Shown here: one piece after another, positions 30,968 through 36,602 of the stretch
Layout of the letters: each line of letters opens with the position of its first letter
Position numbering within the stretch: position 1 is the stretch's first letter
Source of the DNA: Coprococcus comes ATCC 27758
GTDB lineage: Bacteria; Bacillota; Clostridia; Lachnospirales; Lachnospiraceae
Length of the DNA stretch: 64,000 nt
Assembly: GCF_025149785.1 (NCBI RefSeq)
Contig: NZ_CP102277.1
Location: 1,178,001 to 1,242,000, forward strand
Reading direction: 5' to 3'
The notes under the pieces: model-generated
What the model was told of the DNA's origin: nothing
The model's database searches: none
What the model saw: only the letters and a program-made list of their open reading frames with translations
Translations under genes and position numbers: made by a program

Positions 30968-32143
30968 ATGGAAGAAAAGAAAAAACAGACAGAACCGGAA
31001 GCCTGTAAAGTGGCAAAAAAATGCGGAGGATGCCAGTATCAGGGAGTGCCATATAAGGAGCAGCTGAAAAAGAAGCAGAAAATGGTGAACGCTCTGTTGT
31101 CAAAATACGGAAAAGTAGAACCGATCATCGGAATGGAGAATCCGTATTATTACAGAAATAAAGTACACGCCGTATTCGACAGGGACCGAAAGGGAAATAT
31201 CGTATCCGGAACCTATGAAGCGAAGACACACCGGGTCGTTCCTGTTGAAAACTGTCTGATCGAAGACAAAAAGAGTCAGGAGATCATCCGGACGATCCGG
31301 GGACTTTTGAAATCTTTTAAGATCAAAACCTATGATGAAGATACAGGATATGGCCTGTTCCGTCATGTGCTGATCAGAAGAGGGTTTAAAAGCGGAGAGA
31401 TTATGGTGGTTCTGGTGCTTGGATCACCAATCCTTCCATCGTCTAATAATTTCGTAAAAGCACTCAGAAAAGAGCATCCGGAGATTACAACGGTTGTCCT
31501 TAATATCAACGACAGAAAGACCAGTATGATCCTTGGGGAGAGAGAAAAAGTGTTATATGGGAAAGGATTTATCCGGGATGAACTCTGCGGGTGTACTTTC
31601 CGGATTTCACCAAAGTCCTTCTATCAGGTAAATCCGGTGCAGACGGAGATCCTTTATCAGAAAGCGATTGAATTTGCACATCTGACAGGGAAAGAAAGCG
31701 TGATCGATGCCTATTGCGGAATCGGAACGATCGGTCTGATCGCATCGGGACATGCAAAAGAAGTAGTCGGTGTAGAACTTAATAAGGATGCCGTGAAGGA
31801 TGCAATATTAAATGCAAAAGAGAATCAGATCCGGAATGTGAGATTTTTCCAGGGAGATGCCGGGGAGTTTATGGAGGCGATGGCGGCAGAGGGAAATAGT
31901 ATGGATGTGCTGTTTATGGATCCGCCGAGAGCCGGAAGTGATGAAAAATTTATGGCATCTGCAGTGAAGATGGGACCGGAGAAGATCGTGTACATTTCCT
32001 GCAATCCGGAGACACTGGCAAGAGATCTGAAGTATCTGACAAAAAAAGGATATCAGGTAAAAAAGATACAGCCGGTGGAAATGTTTGCGTTTACGGAACA
32101 CGTTGAAACAGTTTGTCTCCTTTCAAAGAAATGCCCAGTTTAA
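30968..32143 (+). CDS. RumA-like 23S rRNA (uracil-5-)-methyltransferase without TRAM domain
   Basis: A 391-aa paralogue of the enzyme at 7394. The N-terminal TRAM domain is absent; the protein begins directly with the 4Fe-4S motif (C-x5-C-x2-C in ACKVAKKCGGC, fourth Cys in VENCLIED). The Rossmann SAM site (DAYCGIGTIGL), MDPPRAGSDE and the catalytic Cys in YISCNPETLARDL are present. So it should be active on RNA, perhaps a different uridine than the TRAM-containing enzyme. AGAGAGGG precedes the start. Confidence 0.88.
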   Translation: MEEKKKQTEPEACKVAKKCGGCQYQGVPYKEQLKKKQKMVNALLSKYGKVEPIIGMENPYYYRNKVHAVFDRDRKGNIVSGTYEAKTHRVVPVENCLIEDKKSQEIIRTIRGLLKSFKIKTYDEDTGYGLFRHVLIRRGFKSGEIMVVLVLGSPILPSSNNFVKALRKEHPEITTVVLNINDRKTSMILGEREKVLYGKGFIRDELCGCTFRISPKSFYQVNPVQTEILYQKAIEFAHLTGKESVIDAYCGIGTIGLIASGHAKEVVGVELNKDAVKDAILNAKENQIRNVRFFQGDAGEFMEAMAAEGNSMDVLFMDPPRAGSDEKFMASAVKMGPEKIVYISCNPETLARDLKYLTKKGYQVKKIQPVEMFAFTEHVETVCLLSKKCPV

Positions 32144-32240
32144 GCGGGTTTGAAGGCACTATTTTAATAAACATATCCACAAAATAGTGCGGAAAAATAT
32201 GTGCGTGTGATGAAAAATTGAAAATGATTTAACACCAGAA

Positions 32241-32288
32241 AACCTTTTGGCGTACTTGTTCCAGTGGTACGCTAGAAGGTTATTTTTG
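32241..32288 (+). terminator. Rho-independent terminator
   Basis: AACCTT...GGCGTAC pairs with GTACGC...AAGGTT, followed by ATTTTTG. Separates the methyltransferase from the XRE-PIN-ankyrin locus. Confidence 0.7.
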
Positions 32289-32457
32289 TTAGGCCAAGGG
32301 TCTGGTTTCATTGTGGAGTTTTTCGTTGATCCGAAAAACGGAACTTTGAAAAAAACCACATTTGTGTTGTTGCAAGTAGCTTCATTTAGTTGCATATATT
32401 AAGTAAATGAAGTGATGAGTTGCGCCTTTTGAATATTTGTTGCAAAAACACACCTTT

Positions 32458-32488
32458 TCGTTGTGAAAAATGCAACGATGTATATAAT
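32458..32488 (+). promoter_or_regulatory. Promoter with overlapping inverted repeat (operator) of the three-gene locus
   Basis: TTGTGA (32461-32466), 16 nt, TATAAT (32483-32488). The inverted repeat TCGTTG (32458) / CAACGA (32473) lies across the -35 box and spacer, as an operator for the HTH-bearing first gene product would. GTTGC motifs recur upstream at about 32370, 32390, 32418 and 32439, and TTGTTGCAACAA occurs just after the last gene at 36363. Confidence 0.6.
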
Positions 32489-32549
32489 GAGAGTATGAGA
32501 TAAAGCCAATAATCAAATTACATACATACCTGTGAAAGGGGCGTTACTT

Positions 32550-33857
32550 ATGGCAAATGATAATCAGATAGCTTTCCTTTGTTCGAGATTGAAGGAGCTT
32601 CGTGAAAAGAATGGCTGTACCATGGATGACATGGCAAAGAAGATTGATGTATTAGAGGGCTTGAAACCAGGAACTGGTATGAACAAGTCGTCTATTTCAC
32701 GTGTTGAAGGTGGAAAAACTGCAGAAAAAACTCTATTGGAAATGGCAAGAAAATATTGTAAGGTTTTTGGAATGTCAGAATCACAGACCGAACAATTTTT
32801 AAGAGGGGAGAAGGTTGCAGTTCCAGATACTTCAGCGTTACTTAAGAATTCACAGTTAATTGATGAACTGAACAAGGAATATAGCAAGGTAGTTATTCCA
32901 AAGGTAGTTGTTGATGAATTAGATAATATAAAGAATAAGAATTCAGGTTCTCTTGGGAGAAAGGCTTGGGAAGTTATTCGTGGTATTAGCTATGGTTCTC
33001 GTACAATTCTTATGGAATATAATGGCGATGCTGATGAAGATAACGAAGATTGCAAAATAATATATATTGCACAGGAGGCTTCTGATACATATCACTGCAA
33101 AATAGATATCATAACAGAGGACACCGATTATTCAGCATATCTTAAAGGGCATGAATCCGTTTCAGCATTACATCTTAGAGAATATATGGCTACTAAGCAG
33201 GATCTTATCAATATGACTAAATTGGCTAGAATTGACGCTTATTACGCAGATTCATATGAGGAATGCGAAGAACCGACAGCAGACGAAGTTAATGCATATC
33301 TTCAGGATGGAAATACCCTTATTATTTCTGCTGTAAGAAATAATAGGGCCACAATTGAGCAAAGAAAAGAAAAAATCAAATGGCTCATTCAGCTTGGTGC
33401 AGATGTGAATAAGCGTGATTGCAGTCGTAGATATTTCCCTGCTCTATCGCATGCAGTGCAGATGAAGGATTATGAGATGTTTATGTTTTTGCTTTTAGAA
33501 TGTAAGGCAAATCCTAATGTTGGAAGTAGAAATCCTTTTGATGCCGGAAAAGTACGCCAGAAGAATGAGGGCAATATGCCATTAATGATTGCTGCCTGGG
33601 AGGGAAAGAAGGATTTTGTAATTGCTTTATGTGAGGATGAAAGAACCAGTATTAACCAGCAGGACGCTAATGGATTTACTGCGCTCATGAAGGCCTGCAT
33701 GAATGGTCACTTTGAAAATAATAAGGAAAAGCATACTTGGGATATTCGAAAGATACTCATTGATGCAGGAGCTGATCAGAAGATCGTTGACATTGATGGT
33801 AAAACAGCTGCTGATTGGGTTAGTGAGTATCATGAATCTGGTCCTACAAGAAAGTAG
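32550..33857 (+). CDS. XRE HTH - PIN nuclease - ankyrin repeat fusion protein
   Basis: A 435-aa three-part protein. Residues 1-86: XRE-type helix-turn-helix (LKELREKNGCTMDDMAKK, SSISRVEGGK). Residues 89-225: PIN domain of the PhoH-associated kind, with the four acidic metal positions visible as D93 (PDTSAL), E123 (VVVDELDN), an Asp in DNEDCKI and DTDYSAYL. Residues 255-430: ankyrin repeats (GNTLIISAVRNN, LIQLGADVNKRD, NMPLMIAAWEGKK, NGFTALMKACMNGHF, ILIDAGADQKI). PIN proteins are RNases; ankyrins bind proteins. The fusion suggests a DNA-binding, protein-sensing nuclease that could also autoregulate. ATG 32550 has AAAGGGG eight bases before it. Confidence 0.85.
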   Translation: MANDNQIAFLCSRLKELREKNGCTMDDMAKKIDVLEGLKPGTGMNKSSISRVEGGKTAEKTLLEMARKYCKVFGMSESQTEQFLRGEKVAVPDTSALLKNSQLIDELNKEYSKVVIPKVVVDELDNIKNKNSGSLGRKAWEVIRGISYGSRTILMEYNGDADEDNEDCKIIYIAQEASDTYHCKIDIITEDTDYSAYLKGHESVSALHLREYMATKQDLINMTKLARIDAYYADSYEECEEPTADEVNAYLQDGNTLIISAVRNNRATIEQRKEKIKWLIQLGADVNKRDCSRRYFPALSHAVQMKDYEMFMFLLLECKANPNVGSRNPFDAGKVRQKNEGNMPLMIAAWEGKKDFVIALCEDERTSINQQDANGFTALMKACMNGHFENNKEKHTWDIRKILIDAGADQKIVDIDGKTAADWVSEYHESGPTRK

Positions 33858-33904
33858 TTTAATAGAGGTAACAATACGAATAGTCAGAAGAGGGGGAATA
33901 GAAG

Positions 33905-34738
33905 ATGGTAACACGAGCTTGTATATCGATAAATAATCGATGCAATCTCAATTGTACTTATTGCCATTTTCATGAGAAGAAGGATTACATTCAAGAGGAC
34001 AATATGGATGTAATTACTATCCTTGATATTATTGCTTCACATATTGAAGACAACGATATTGATTTGTTTAAGTTAGGGTTCGTGGGTAATGGAGAACCAA
34101 TGTTAGATTATGAGAAACTTAAGCAGTATATCGCTCATATTGGAGATTATTTGAAATCAGGAAGAATTGCTGCATACACCATTACAAACGGTCTTTTAGT
34201 TGATCGTGAGAAGTTAGAATTCTTCAAAGAATACAATGTAAATGTTGGCTTTTCAGTAGATGGAATCTCTGCTATTCACGACAAGTATAGATGTGGAACT
34301 CATGAGCGAGTGATGGCAAATATAGCTTTATACAAAGAAGTGAATGGAAAGTATCCTTCTATGAATTGTACTGTTGGAAAAGAGATAATTGATAATCCGG
34401 AAGCGACCATAGGGTTCTTTGAACAATTTGGTAATAGGATCACGTTTTCTAGGATGATTGGAAAACAGGGGATATCGTTACCTGATTTTAATGCGTTCTT
34501 GAATAAGGCGATGGAACGATTGAATGTTAGAACTGGTGGCTACGACTGTACCATGTATGGTGGTATGTGTGGTGCAGGAATGGATAATATTTTTTACGCA
34601 AATGGAAAGATATTCATATGTGGTAATTGTATCGATTTACCTTTTTCAATGCCTTACGACACACCTCTAAATGAGGTCAGTTTTGACGTTATCGATTTTG
34701 ACAGAAGCTGTTGTTTCAAGGAGGTGTTTACTGGTTGA
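33905..34738 (+). CDS. Radical SAM protein with C-terminal Cys cluster
   Basis: A 277-aa enzyme. The canonical C-x3-C-x2-C is RCNLNCTYC (Cys13, 17, 20); GFVGNGEPML is the SAM-binding GGE-like motif. The C-terminal part has cysteines in GGMCGAGMDN, FICGNC and DRSCC, the pattern of a SPASM or twitch auxiliary Fe-S cluster, which is typical of enzymes that modify peptides or proteins. Substrate unknown. AGAGGGGG precedes the start; it lies 47 nt after the PIN-ankyrin gene and its stop overlaps the next start (TTGA). Confidence 0.85.
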   Translation: MVTRACISINNRCNLNCTYCHFHEKKDYIQEDNMDVITILDIIASHIEDNDIDLFKLGFVGNGEPMLDYEKLKQYIAHIGDYLKSGRIAAYTITNGLLVDREKLEFFKEYNVNVGFSVDGISAIHDKYRCGTHERVMANIALYKEVNGKYPSMNCTVGKEIIDNPEATIGFFEQFGNRITFSRMIGKQGISLPDFNAFLNKAMERLNVRTGGYDCTMYGGMCGAGMDNIFYANGKIFICGNCIDLPFSMPYDTPLNEVSFDVIDFDRSCCFKEVFTG

Positions 34739-36354
34739 AGATAGCATTATATGGAATGCCTTGTGCAGGCAAAAGTACATTGATGGATAGAATCACTGAT
34801 GCAAAGGTTATTAATGGCAGCCAGGAGTTGAGACGTATTTGCGGTGGTTCCTTTTTGGAACTATCAGAAGAAGAGAAACATCAAGTTAGAATTAAATACA
34901 CAGAATATATTAATGGTTTGAATGATGAAGTAATTGTTTCAGATGGACACTATTCATTTATGGAAACTGTTGCATTTACTGAGGCTGACGGAGAGTTGTA
35001 CGATATCTTTATTTATCTGTATTGTTCTCCGGAAAATCTTAAGGAAAGATATGCTTTGTCAGAGAAAAATGGTAAGTTTGCTGGCGAGTCCATTGAGTCG
35101 TTAAGACAATGGCAGGAATTTGAAATAAATAATCTTAGAGAGGAATGTCATAGGCGAAATAAGGACTTTTACGTTGTAAGTGATAATGAAGAAGAACAGA
35201 ATAAGTTTTTTGATTTCTTATCTTTACTTCGAGAAGGTTTCAGCTCCTACGATTTAGCGACAGATATCTGTAATCAAATAATGGAGCAGTTCAACAAGCA
35301 GGATATCTTGTATATGGTTGACGGAGATAAAACCATTATTATTCAAGATTCATATAGGTTCTGTTGTAATGGCAAGACAAAGATCTTCGATGGAGATTTT
35401 TATACTGGCTATCAATCATTTCTTTTTGAAAAGGAATTACAAACCGCGTCTATTGACAAATCTAAAATTGCAGAGATAACAATTAATAATGAAGTGTATG
35501 ACATAGTTGCATCGAATAATTATGTTGTACTTTCTTCTGGAATAAAAGATTTGTGGAGCGATATTGCTAATGCTAAGAATCTTGGAACTATATTTGCTAG
35601 TCCATACATAAGTGCAGATGTTAAGTATTATGTTGTAAAGCAATTGCGAGAACATGGATACACTATTTTTGCCTATGGAGATAGCAAGATTGATTTATAT
35701 ATGTTACGCGAGGCTGATAAAGGATTTCTGTATATTGGTAAGCGAATAAGCAGATCATTGAAGAATGAAAGCTTATCAGGCTTGGTGCCGATTTACGATC
35801 ATTCTTTGGTGATATTGGCTGATGAGGACGAAGAAGTACAAGCTGATATTGCTATCTGCAAATCGAATTCAGGAATAAGTGGAAGTAGGCTGGCAGCAGC
35901 ACATGTGCGTTTAGGAGAAAAAATAGGAAGGCACATTGCTGCCGTATTCCCAGAGAAAAATACATCAATCTTAGTTTTGGAACGAGGTGGCAGGTTTTTT
36001 GGTGACGGAGTATATATGGGAGCAGGCGGCATTTTTTATTCGATGAACCCGAAGCAAGATGATGCTCCTGTGATTAATACAGAGAGAGTAGTTATTGTTG
36101 ATAGTGTGATTAATACTGGAAAATCAATAATGAGGATTATTGATGAGTTAAAGAATCATAATCCAGGCATTGACGTTATTATCGCTGCAAATGTTATTCA
36201 GAATGAAGCTGTCGAGTTGTTTAAGGATTATCTTGTGTTTGCAACAAGGCTTTCGAAGAATTCATTTGTAGGAGTTAATCAATCAAAGCAAACTGGCAAA
36301 ACAGGACCGGATACTGCAGATAGACTTTTTAATTTAATAAAAAAACGATATTGA
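34735..36354 (+). CDS. P-loop kinase - HAD phosphatase - phosphoribosyltransferase fusion
   Basis: A 539-aa three-domain protein. Residues 1-165: adenylate-kinase-like P-loop domain with Walker A GMPCAGKST and a lid-like segment. Residues about 190-350: HAD-like phosphatase with motif I DGDKT and motif IV YGDSKIDLYML. Residues about 370-539: type I phosphoribosyltransferase with the PRPP loop VVIVDSVINTGKS and a preceding LVLERGGRFFGDG. The set kinase, phosphatase and PRTase implies handling of a nucleotide or sugar phosphate. A TTG start at 34735 fits AAGGAGGT nine bases upstream and overlaps the radical SAM stop by 4 nt, so translation is coupled. Confidence 0.8.
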   Translation: MKIALYGMPCAGKSTLMDRITDAKVINGSQELRRICGGSFLELSEEEKHQVRIKYTEYINGLNDEVIVSDGHYSFMETVAFTEADGELYDIFIYLYCSPENLKERYALSEKNGKFAGESIESLRQWQEFEINNLREECHRRNKDFYVVSDNEEEQNKFFDFLSLLREGFSSYDLATDICNQIMEQFNKQDILYMVDGDKTIIIQDSYRFCCNGKTKIFDGDFYTGYQSFLFEKELQTASIDKSKIAEITINNEVYDIVASNNYVVLSSGIKDLWSDIANAKNLGTIFASPYISADVKYYVVKQLREHGYTIFAYGDSKIDLYMLREADKGFLYIGKRISRSLKNESLSGLVPIYDHSLVILADEDEEVQADIAICKSNSGISGSRLAAAHVRLGEKIGRHIAAVFPEKNTSILVLERGGRFFGDGVYMGAGGIFYSMNPKQDDAPVINTERVVIVDSVINTGKSIMRIIDELKNHNPGIDVIIAANVIQNEAVELFKDYLVFATRLSKNSFVGVNQSKQTGKTGPDTADRLFNLIKKRY

Positions 36355-36602
36355 AATGATTTTGTTGCAACAAGATTTTTTTGTTTTTAGTCAAATGTCA
36401 ACATTTAACAATTTGTTAAAAATGCACAAATTGTAGACTGTTAACAATCTGAATGTGTGTGAATGAAAAACAGATATCGTTCATATATGTAGTAAAATCC
36501 GTCCACGAAAGACTTGTTTTTTTGTATACAATAAAAATACGTCGTATTCCACAAAAATGCACAAAAACGAAAACGATAATAGATGTTTAATTGGTAAAAT
36601 GT

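Follow-up and report, generated by a model that had tools for sequence, protein, structure and literature searches.

The stretch of 64,000 nucleotides analysed here, hereafter the window, derives from Coprococcus comes ATCC 27758 (contig NZ_CP102277.1, positions 1,178,001 to 1,242,000) and carries a locus that comparison across genomes shows to be a conserved four-gene module. Its predicted products are a protein that joins a helix-turn-helix (HTH) region, a PIN domain and ankyrin repeats (PIN-Ank), a radical SAM enzyme, a kinase-HAD protein, and a phosphoribosyltransferase (PRTase) similar to uracil phosphoribosyltransferase (UPRTase); the last two are fused in the window. No described system was found that combines these parts. 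Our preferred reading, which we hold tentatively and with somewhat less than even confidence, is that the locus is a mobile, phage-associated and self-regulated conflict module whose enzymes would act on a pyrimidine-like nucleotide.

The module was followed through 45 loci (numbered L), made up of the window, 40 contigs of clostridial genomes and four viral contigs. A radical SAM alignment scanned against one genome per species (84,980 species) gave 40 close loci (at least 48% identity), which record titles place in Lachnospiraceae, Oscillospiraceae/Ruminococcus and other Clostridia; presence of the module in Clostridia is sporadic. Seven distant radical SAM matches (L050-L056, 22-30% identity) and 17 further viral matches (L089-L105, 23-31% identity) were left out of the counts. 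The three window genes, treated as one unit in the original prediction, travel together outside this genome, the same order recurring in tens of genomes, far above chance. PIN-Ank is encoded immediately 5' of the radical SAM gene in all 44 loci having upstream sequence (L017 starts at the edge of its contig; the PIN-Ank gene of L037 is itself cut), and a full-length kinase-HAD gene lies 3' of the radical SAM gene in 40 of 43 loci, L022 and L048 being without it and L025 retaining a 112-amino-acid remnant (L039 and L046, both cut off by the contig end, fall outside this count). The PRTase is fused (11 loci) or adjacent (28) to the kinase-HAD in 39/39, with L032, which ends at an edge, outside this count. 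Module genes overlap mostly by 4-10 bases, which is consistent with translational coupling. Within the family of the window, the fusion or its parts occur in 5 of 397 genomes, window included, and are split into kinase-HAD and PRTase genes in three of these five. A kinase-HAD-PRTase profile had three matches in 391 genomes of the class; the only one beyond the 45 loci, in genome G629, is accompanied by all four genes, and a kinase profile found nothing but G629 in 197 genomes of its family. A PIN-Ank profile run on 398 genomes of the phylum gave, besides the window, solely ankyrin-region matches in four genomes, and in neither of the samples searched (391 class genomes, 398 phylum genomes) did the components turn up separately.

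The window PIN-Ank matches PIN_4 (1.7e-11; PF13638 score 45, cut-off 21.9) and Ank_2 (2.2e-21), and has a Pfam HTH match (2.3e-05) that is under its cut-off. The PIN site is not degenerate across homologs, a circumstance that the original prediction had named as speaking against it: over 49 aligned PIN-Ank rows, in which a gap counts as a miss, D93 is conserved in 45, E123 in 45, D167 in 42 and D191 in 47. His replaces the first PIN Asp in three rows (L010, L011 and L057); each of these loci has a second PIN-Ank gene adjoining, that of L010 encoding just 67 amino acids. We class PIN-Ank as a predicted RNase. Two loci (L012:7394-10008 and L016:7357-9991) carry two full-length HTH-PIN-Ank genes in tandem, 5' of the radical SAM gene.

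The radical SAM enzyme of the window matches Pfam Radical_SAM at 1.9e-17. Across 38 aligned rows the cysteines of the CxxxCxxC motif (C13, C17 and C20) are invariant, as are five C-terminal cysteines (C215, C222, C239, C242 and C270) that are putative auxiliary-cluster ligands, in agreement with the SPASM/twitch-like cysteine cluster first noted; a distant enzyme from locus L088 retains four of the five C-terminal positions. The AlphaFold2 model (predicted local distance difference test score (pLDDT) 89.9; predicted template modelling score (pTM) 0.88) is closest in fold to the sulfatase-maturating enzyme anSMEcpe (4k38_B; Z 23.5, 263 aligned residues, 2.8 A), followed by ChlB (Z 23.0), SuiB, 5why, which we take to be CteB-type, viperin (19.6), MoaA (17.3) and BlsE. 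Its NCBIfam scores are under the family cut-offs for viperin (46.8, cut-off 180), for sulfatase maturase, the best match (86.8, cut-off 349.45), and likewise for the other maturase models listed.

In the fusion, Pfam recognizes AAA_18 (3.4e-09) and UPRTase (2.5e-08; PF14681 score 34.1, cut-off 27). The PRTase_2 model scores 16.0 against a threshold of 28.8, and the upp equivalog 15.9 bits against 208.35. AlphaFold2 models the whole chain with high scores (pLDDT 90.5, pTM 0.86), and the fold matches by domain are to an archaeal-type adenylate kinase, a SerB-type HAD phosphatase and a uracil phosphoribosyltransferase; SerB is the best HAD match among the matches listed, the rows of the VIA comparison being mostly kinase and PRTase. 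Walker A, HAD and phosphoribosyl pyrophosphate (PRPP) motifs do lie on one chain, as had been proposed, with the HAD part sub-threshold by sequence (0.018) and evident in the model (fold Z ~13). P-loop, DGH and HAD residues (K21, D78-H80, D204, D206, T208, D324 and D328 in open reading frame (ORF) numbering) show no variation across 40 rows, and the PRTase site is also not degenerate, its C-terminal GPDTxxRLF being present in 39/39 and the strict PRPP-loop pattern in 33/39. We presume that GPDTxxRLF resembles the uracil-site motif of uracil phosphoribosyltransferase.

The ends of the module are marked by operator-like arrays. GTTGCA occurs at 79 sites in 16.7 kb upstream of PIN-Ank and at 87 in 17.1 kb downstream of the PRTase (4.7-5.1 per kb); inside the module there are 85 sites in 157 kb and elsewhere 214 in 462 kb (0.46-0.54 per kb). 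Upstream arrays are mostly unidirectional with spacings largely of 20, 30 and 50 bp, often with a final inverted site 31-32 bp on, and downstream arrays are more mixed. A second motif, TGTGCA, forms arrays with spacings often of 13, 20 and 33 and a final inverted site at 26. Arrays of at least three sites number 44 in the 45 loci (29 GTTGCA, 15 TGTGCA); 43 lie within ~650 bp of the module and one (L026:5960) 1.2 kb beyond. For loci with at least 150 bp of upstream sequence (which leaves out L015, with a short upstream region, and L017 and L037, at contig edges), the HTH tree separates type A (24 loci), type B (15) and type C (3). At least two GTTGCA sites are present in 20/24 type A and 0/15 type B loci, and at least two TGTGCA sites in 1/24 type A and 10/15 type B loci; GTTGCA arrays of at least three sites are absent from type B loci, and such TGTGCA arrays from type A loci. 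Because the motif changes with the HTH type of PIN-Ank, this protein would be a DNA-binding autoregulator besides a predicted RNase, and we strongly infer that it would bind the phased arrays at its own promoter and, in about ten loci, those ahead of a downstream gene for a NERD-domain protein, and that it would regulate both.

Genes for NERD-domain proteins (PF08378) occur in 14 of the 45 loci, 11 downstream of the module and three between the radical SAM and fusion genes. The gap 5' of the downstream NERD gene carries GTTGCA (L015, L016, L021, L030, L033, L043, L058 and L059) or TGTGCA (L013 and L060) in 10 of 11 loci, L057 having neither, and the motif at this gap agrees with the HTH type in 9 of the 10 loci having a typed HTH. 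Small genes for proteins of ~65-75 amino acids follow the NERD gene in several loci, one of these proteins having an HNH domain in 4/45 loci. The window is without a NERD operon.

Several points weigh against assigning the arrays to PIN-Ank. Fewer than two sites of their own motif lie upstream in four of the 24 type A loci (L018, L021, L041 and L045) and five of the 15 type B loci (L010, L011, L019, L027 and L057), and the three type C loci are without an array of either motif. Among these exceptions, L021 and L027 have an array after all, overlapping an over-long ORF start; L045 has only 180 bp upstream; L041, with a divergent HTH, has its own TGCCA array at ~20 bp spacing with an inverted copy between the apparent -35 and -10; and, by eye, L018 has GTTGCG copies and L010 GGCTGT copies. 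Fisher p-values for the association of motif with HTH type (1.5e-7 and 4.4e-5) overstate independence because the association rests largely on one deep split of the HTH tree, and the motifs were discovered on the same sequences as used for the association counts. Some other protein may be the regulator at the arrays.

The mobility of the module is seen in the window itself. A sister species of the same genus (G232) has 57 bp where the window has ~4.3 kb, with flanks ~94-96% identical, and at 32100-32143 the insertion took the place of the final few codons of the gene lying upstream, whose product is by eye of the RlmD/RumA rRNA methyltransferase type. A contig assigned to Inconstantimicrobium porci, a draft in which contamination is possible, matches positions 32495-36377 with 96.1% identity over 3883 bp. 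We take Inconstantimicrobium to be a genus of Clostridiaceae; the genomes matched within the family of the window belong to Lachnospiraceae (Acetatifactor, Anaerobium and Lachnospira). Because the sister species has an empty site and a 96% identical copy lies on a contig assigned to another family, the module in the window is, by sequence comparison, a recent insertion. Copies adjoining housekeeping-type genes occur in the window, L034, L036, L038 and G629. In L045, a near-identical module is followed on its 3' side by seven GTTGCA sites in an array and by the beginning of a NERD-like frame (by eye; L045:4120-4400); the similarity of the window to L045 stops just short of this downstream array, and an IS3-type transposase end (by eye) lies 5' in L045.

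Phage genes accompany other copies. The module is directly 3' of an endolysin gene in four of the 45 loci (L030, L032, and, from the viral collection, L057 and L059), all of which share tail-type genes ahead of the endolysin and module, and L014 has a phage tail-type gene upstream. Serine-recombinase genes occur in 9/45 loci, including the four viral-collection loci L057-L060; eight of the nine were checked by PHROGs and the short one of L040 was assigned by clustering alone. The most informative copy is on viral contig L088, where a module that is distant yet complete (33% identity in the radical SAM enzyme) is flanked by a portal-like gene (Pfam 3.2e-07, under cut-off) and a terminase gene (above cut-off), with a GC content of 41% in the module and 52-54% in those two genes. 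Since a complete, distant module lies amid phage genes, the four genes are an old unit as well as phage cargo. Alignment-based scans recovered the four viral loci and L088; with single-sequence queries of the viral set, the window fusion found none and the L088 kinase-HAD protein only L088 itself, and the same two queries had no match in plasmid and phage collections. Eleven phage-collection matches to the L088 radical SAM enzyme (~24-31% identity) were set aside, judged from L106 (MT837846.1) alone, which was rejected as a module copy: by eye it encodes a 460-amino-acid SPASM maturase amid bacterial housekeeping genes. As this phage-collection record reads as bacterial housekeeping genes, it may not be phage. 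A short ORF for an excisionase-like HTH protein (by eye) lies 5' of PIN-Ank at L057:7100-7470, with a degraded trace in L010.

No single PADLOC, Pfam or NCBIfam model spans the whole module. PADLOC matches its ankyrin part (PDC-M72A, 1.4e-13) and radical SAM core (pVip, 1.9e-12), with other matches weak and no cut-offs given. Prokaryotic viperins (pVips) resemble the module in having a small radical SAM enzyme of similar fold and, in some cases, a nucleotide-kinase-like partner, for which PADLOC has the class 'Viperins associated with kinases'; the module differs in its low viperin score, its C-terminal cysteine cluster and the presence of PIN-Ank, HAD and PRTase alongside. Anaerobic sulfatase-maturating enzymes (anSMEs) and other SPASM maturases share the C-terminal cysteine cluster and give the best fold match, but are longer (~370 amino acids, compared to 277) and have a model that the module enzyme does not reach, and the module gene adjoins PIN-Ank and a nucleotide-type fusion. 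Uracil phosphoribosyltransferase is alike in fold and in a Pfam family above cut-off, whereas the module PRTase is fused to or overlaps the kinase-HAD and scores far below the upp equivalog. Ter-dependent systems include clustered PRTase and HAD genes, for which a nucleoside-like metabolite has been proposed as product; PRTase_2 is under threshold in the module, and no Ter proteins were recognized beside it, no search having been aimed at them.

In the parts of PMC13092281 reached by term searches, the DefensePredictor systems DS-3 and DS-5 are described as having a PIN RNase required for phage defence, one being a single protein and the other working with a further protein of DUF5830 type; the main text of that paper contains neither 'radical SAM' nor 'ankyrin'. 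The (PIN)-GNAT-EVE operons bring together PIN and an AAA_17-type P-loop protein according to the matched text of PMC7641849, in which 'ankyrin' and 'phosphoribosyltransferase' do not appear, and no GNAT or EVE match was found by Pfam among the three window proteins. Term searches in these two papers, PMC10853773 and PMC7159879 gave, in the text covered, nothing fitting the combination, nor did literature text searches, in which most subscription papers and all preprints were outside coverage, give a description of it. That the original prediction did not recognize the combination as a described system agrees with these searches and with the PADLOC, Pfam and NCBIfam models.

The same prediction suggested a possible stress or phage-defence module, for which the only support is the phage and mobile-element context. 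PADLOC matches in the flanks are not clearly above a control: 112 flanking proteins gave 59 families and a 39-protein window control 55. Flank matches include, among the 25 listed, AbiD, BrxH, DpdJ, DruE, PtuA and AbiO, and control matches include UvrD as GajB and ABC-type proteins as mad3; because the control gave nearly as many families, the flank matches were dropped as evidence.

For a conflict module of the kind we prefer, the parts might work as follows. With good support from sequence, PIN-Ank would bind the arrays cooperatively and so regulate, and probably repress, the module operon as well as any NERD operon, and its ankyrin repeats would probably sense a partner, RNA or metabolite, which is a guess. 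Judged by their folds, the kinase, HAD and PRTase domains, encoded by overlapping or fused genes, most likely handle a single pyrimidine-like base or nucleotide in one pathway, in which base and PRPP would yield a nucleoside monophosphate, the monophosphate would be raised to the diphosphate, and the HAD domain would dephosphorylate; the target of the radical SAM enzyme would be either this metabolite or a protein. Derepression might be triggered by phage infection or by a competing element, and the PIN RNase and the enzyme product might then attack the invader or arrest the cell, the context of the module offering a weak hint in this direction. Of the two products suggested originally, a modified nucleotide would be compatible with the kinase, PRTase and HAD folds, and a modified protein with the closest fold relatives of the radical SAM enzyme. 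A more specific version is doubtful: that the module is a phage-carried immune system in which HTH-PIN-Ank is operator-binding repressor, sensor and RNase executioner, and in which the radical SAM enzyme, served by its own uracil-type PRTase, nucleoside monophosphate kinase and phosphatase, produces a novel pyrimidine nucleotide with a modification, either antiviral or a switch read by the ankyrin repeats. If the enzymes do make a new nucleotide, this would be a further radical SAM route, beside viperin, to an antiviral or signalling nucleotide. Apart from any nucleotide, the operator evidence suggests a predicted RNase that would also be its own array-binding regulator, motif and HTH changing together, and the operator motif offers a rule for finding the regulon (NERD-protein gene and small neighbours) in Clostridia and their phages.

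The main rival is protein modification, which is likewise doubtful: the radical SAM enzyme would oxidize or cross-link a residue, either in PIN-Ank or in some protein of the host or phage, and RNase activity or DNA binding would be switched in this way, with the kinase, HAD and PRTase tuning or reversing the change. The modelled radical SAM fold favours this rival, and a protein target, since its nearest folds are the peptide modifiers anSME, ChlB and SuiB, ahead of viperin and MoaA; the best sequence matches of solved structure are anSME and 5wgg, whose title in Foldseek makes it a sactipeptide enzyme, and sulfatase maturase is the best NCBIfam match. However, viperin and MoaA are also good fold matches, no precursor-peptide gene or RRE domain was recognized (by eye, no dedicated search having been made), and three nucleotide-type enzymes are left without explanation.

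Less likely is a toxin-antitoxin-like addiction or prophage-stability module, in which a PIN-Ank toxin would be restrained by the enzymes and by autorepression. The intact PIN residues, the architecture of autoregulation and the phage and recombinase context are in its favour, but no small antitoxin partner was recognized, and L022, L025 and L048 keep PIN-Ank without a full-length kinase-HAD, which is hard to square with an enzyme antitoxin. We regard auxiliary metabolism as slightly less likely still: the UPRTase-like and adenylate-kinase-like folds, and flanks not clearly above control in PADLOC families, would fit a mobile cargo for salvage of some unusual pyrimidine base with PIN-Ank as regulator only, yet the PIN acids are maintained and the NERD and small HNH proteins are associated with the module. 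It is very unlikely that the kinase-HAD heals RNA ends cut by the PIN RNase in the manner of T4 polynucleotide kinase-phosphatase, which has the same order of kinase then HAD: proteins of polynucleotide-kinase type take the top three places among the BFVD matches and a Pnkp1 complex is in the PDB list at E 1e-3, but the TM-scores of these BFVD matches are only 0.16-0.21 by query length, the single domains are closer to adenylate kinase (Z 19) and SerB, and no role is left for the fused PRTase or the radical SAM enzyme.

Within the window, the three ORFs are present as first described, with the expected domain content by Pfam and modelled folds (Table 1). Codon use does differ from that of neighbouring genes, a real but modest difference (GC content at third codon positions 0.29-0.33 in the three module genes and 0.34-0.47 in eight neighbours measured). 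Tight linkage stands for the TTG start of the fusion gene, which overlaps the radical SAM stop codon, but the 47-nucleotide gap between the PIN-Ank and radical SAM genes is peculiar to this copy, arising because PIN-Ank stops at an in-frame TAG ~20 residues early; in relatives these two genes are mostly overlapping, commonly by 4-7 bases. The tail cut off by the early TAG (window 33855-33910) is short, basic and Gly/Asn/Arg-rich in relatives such as L045, and PIN-Ank copies with an intact C-terminal tail are found in other loci. A single shared promoter, also part of the original prediction, is supported by one candidate whose spacer holds the inverted site of the array, but the consensus scan gave 12 sites in total, not above the shuffle mean of 17.5.

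Table 1. Features of the module in the window (positions of the window unless a locus is given) and genes of other loci mentioned in the text
Feature	Position	Strand	Details
PIN-Ank gene (HTH-PIN-ankyrin)	32550..33857	+	435 amino acids; C-terminal end ~20 residues short of relatives
PIN domain of PIN-Ank	32820..33128	+	Pfam PIN_4; residues D93, E123, D167, D191
Radical SAM enzyme gene	33905..34738	+	277 amino acids; CxxxCxxC and C-terminal C215, C222, C239, C242, C270
Fusion gene	34735..36354	+	539 amino acids; adenylate-kinase-like kinase residues 1-168, HAD ~187-355, UPRTase-like PRTase ~357-535
P-loop kinase domain, adenylate-kinase-like	34735..35238	+	VIA Z 19.1 to OdinAK 7owe_C, 163 aligned, 2.1 A
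HAD domain	35293..35799	+	VIA Z 13.1 to SerB2 5jjb, 163 aligned, 3.8 A; DGDKT and GDSxxD motifs
PRTase domain, UPRTase-like	35803..36339	+	VIA Z 19.6 to 3g6w_C, 164 aligned, 2.3 A; C-terminal GPDTxxRLF
Inserted segment (approximate ends)	32113..36375	.	absent at matching site in sister species G232
Operator-like array	32369..32476	+	GTTGCA at 32369, 32389, 32439; inverted TGCAAC at 32471; spacings 20, 50, 32
Predicted promoter TTGTGA-16-TATAAT	32461..32488	+	10/12 consensus matches (consensus scan only); spacer holds inverted site
NERD-protein gene, example locus	L043:12759-13835		behind operator-like motif
Gene for ~110-amino-acid protein	L035:13603-13941, L040:13761-14102, also L041, L042		

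Further small genes accompany particular groups of loci. In the type C loci (L029:7213-8698, L020 and L023:8244-8684) a gene for a small putative membrane protein lies 5' of PIN-Ank, and L029 (and L020 by clustering) has genes for an Xre-type repressor and an RNase_T-type exonuclease as well. In Ruminococcus-type loci, the ~110-amino-acid protein encoded 3' of the fused gene has one predicted membrane stretch (by eye).

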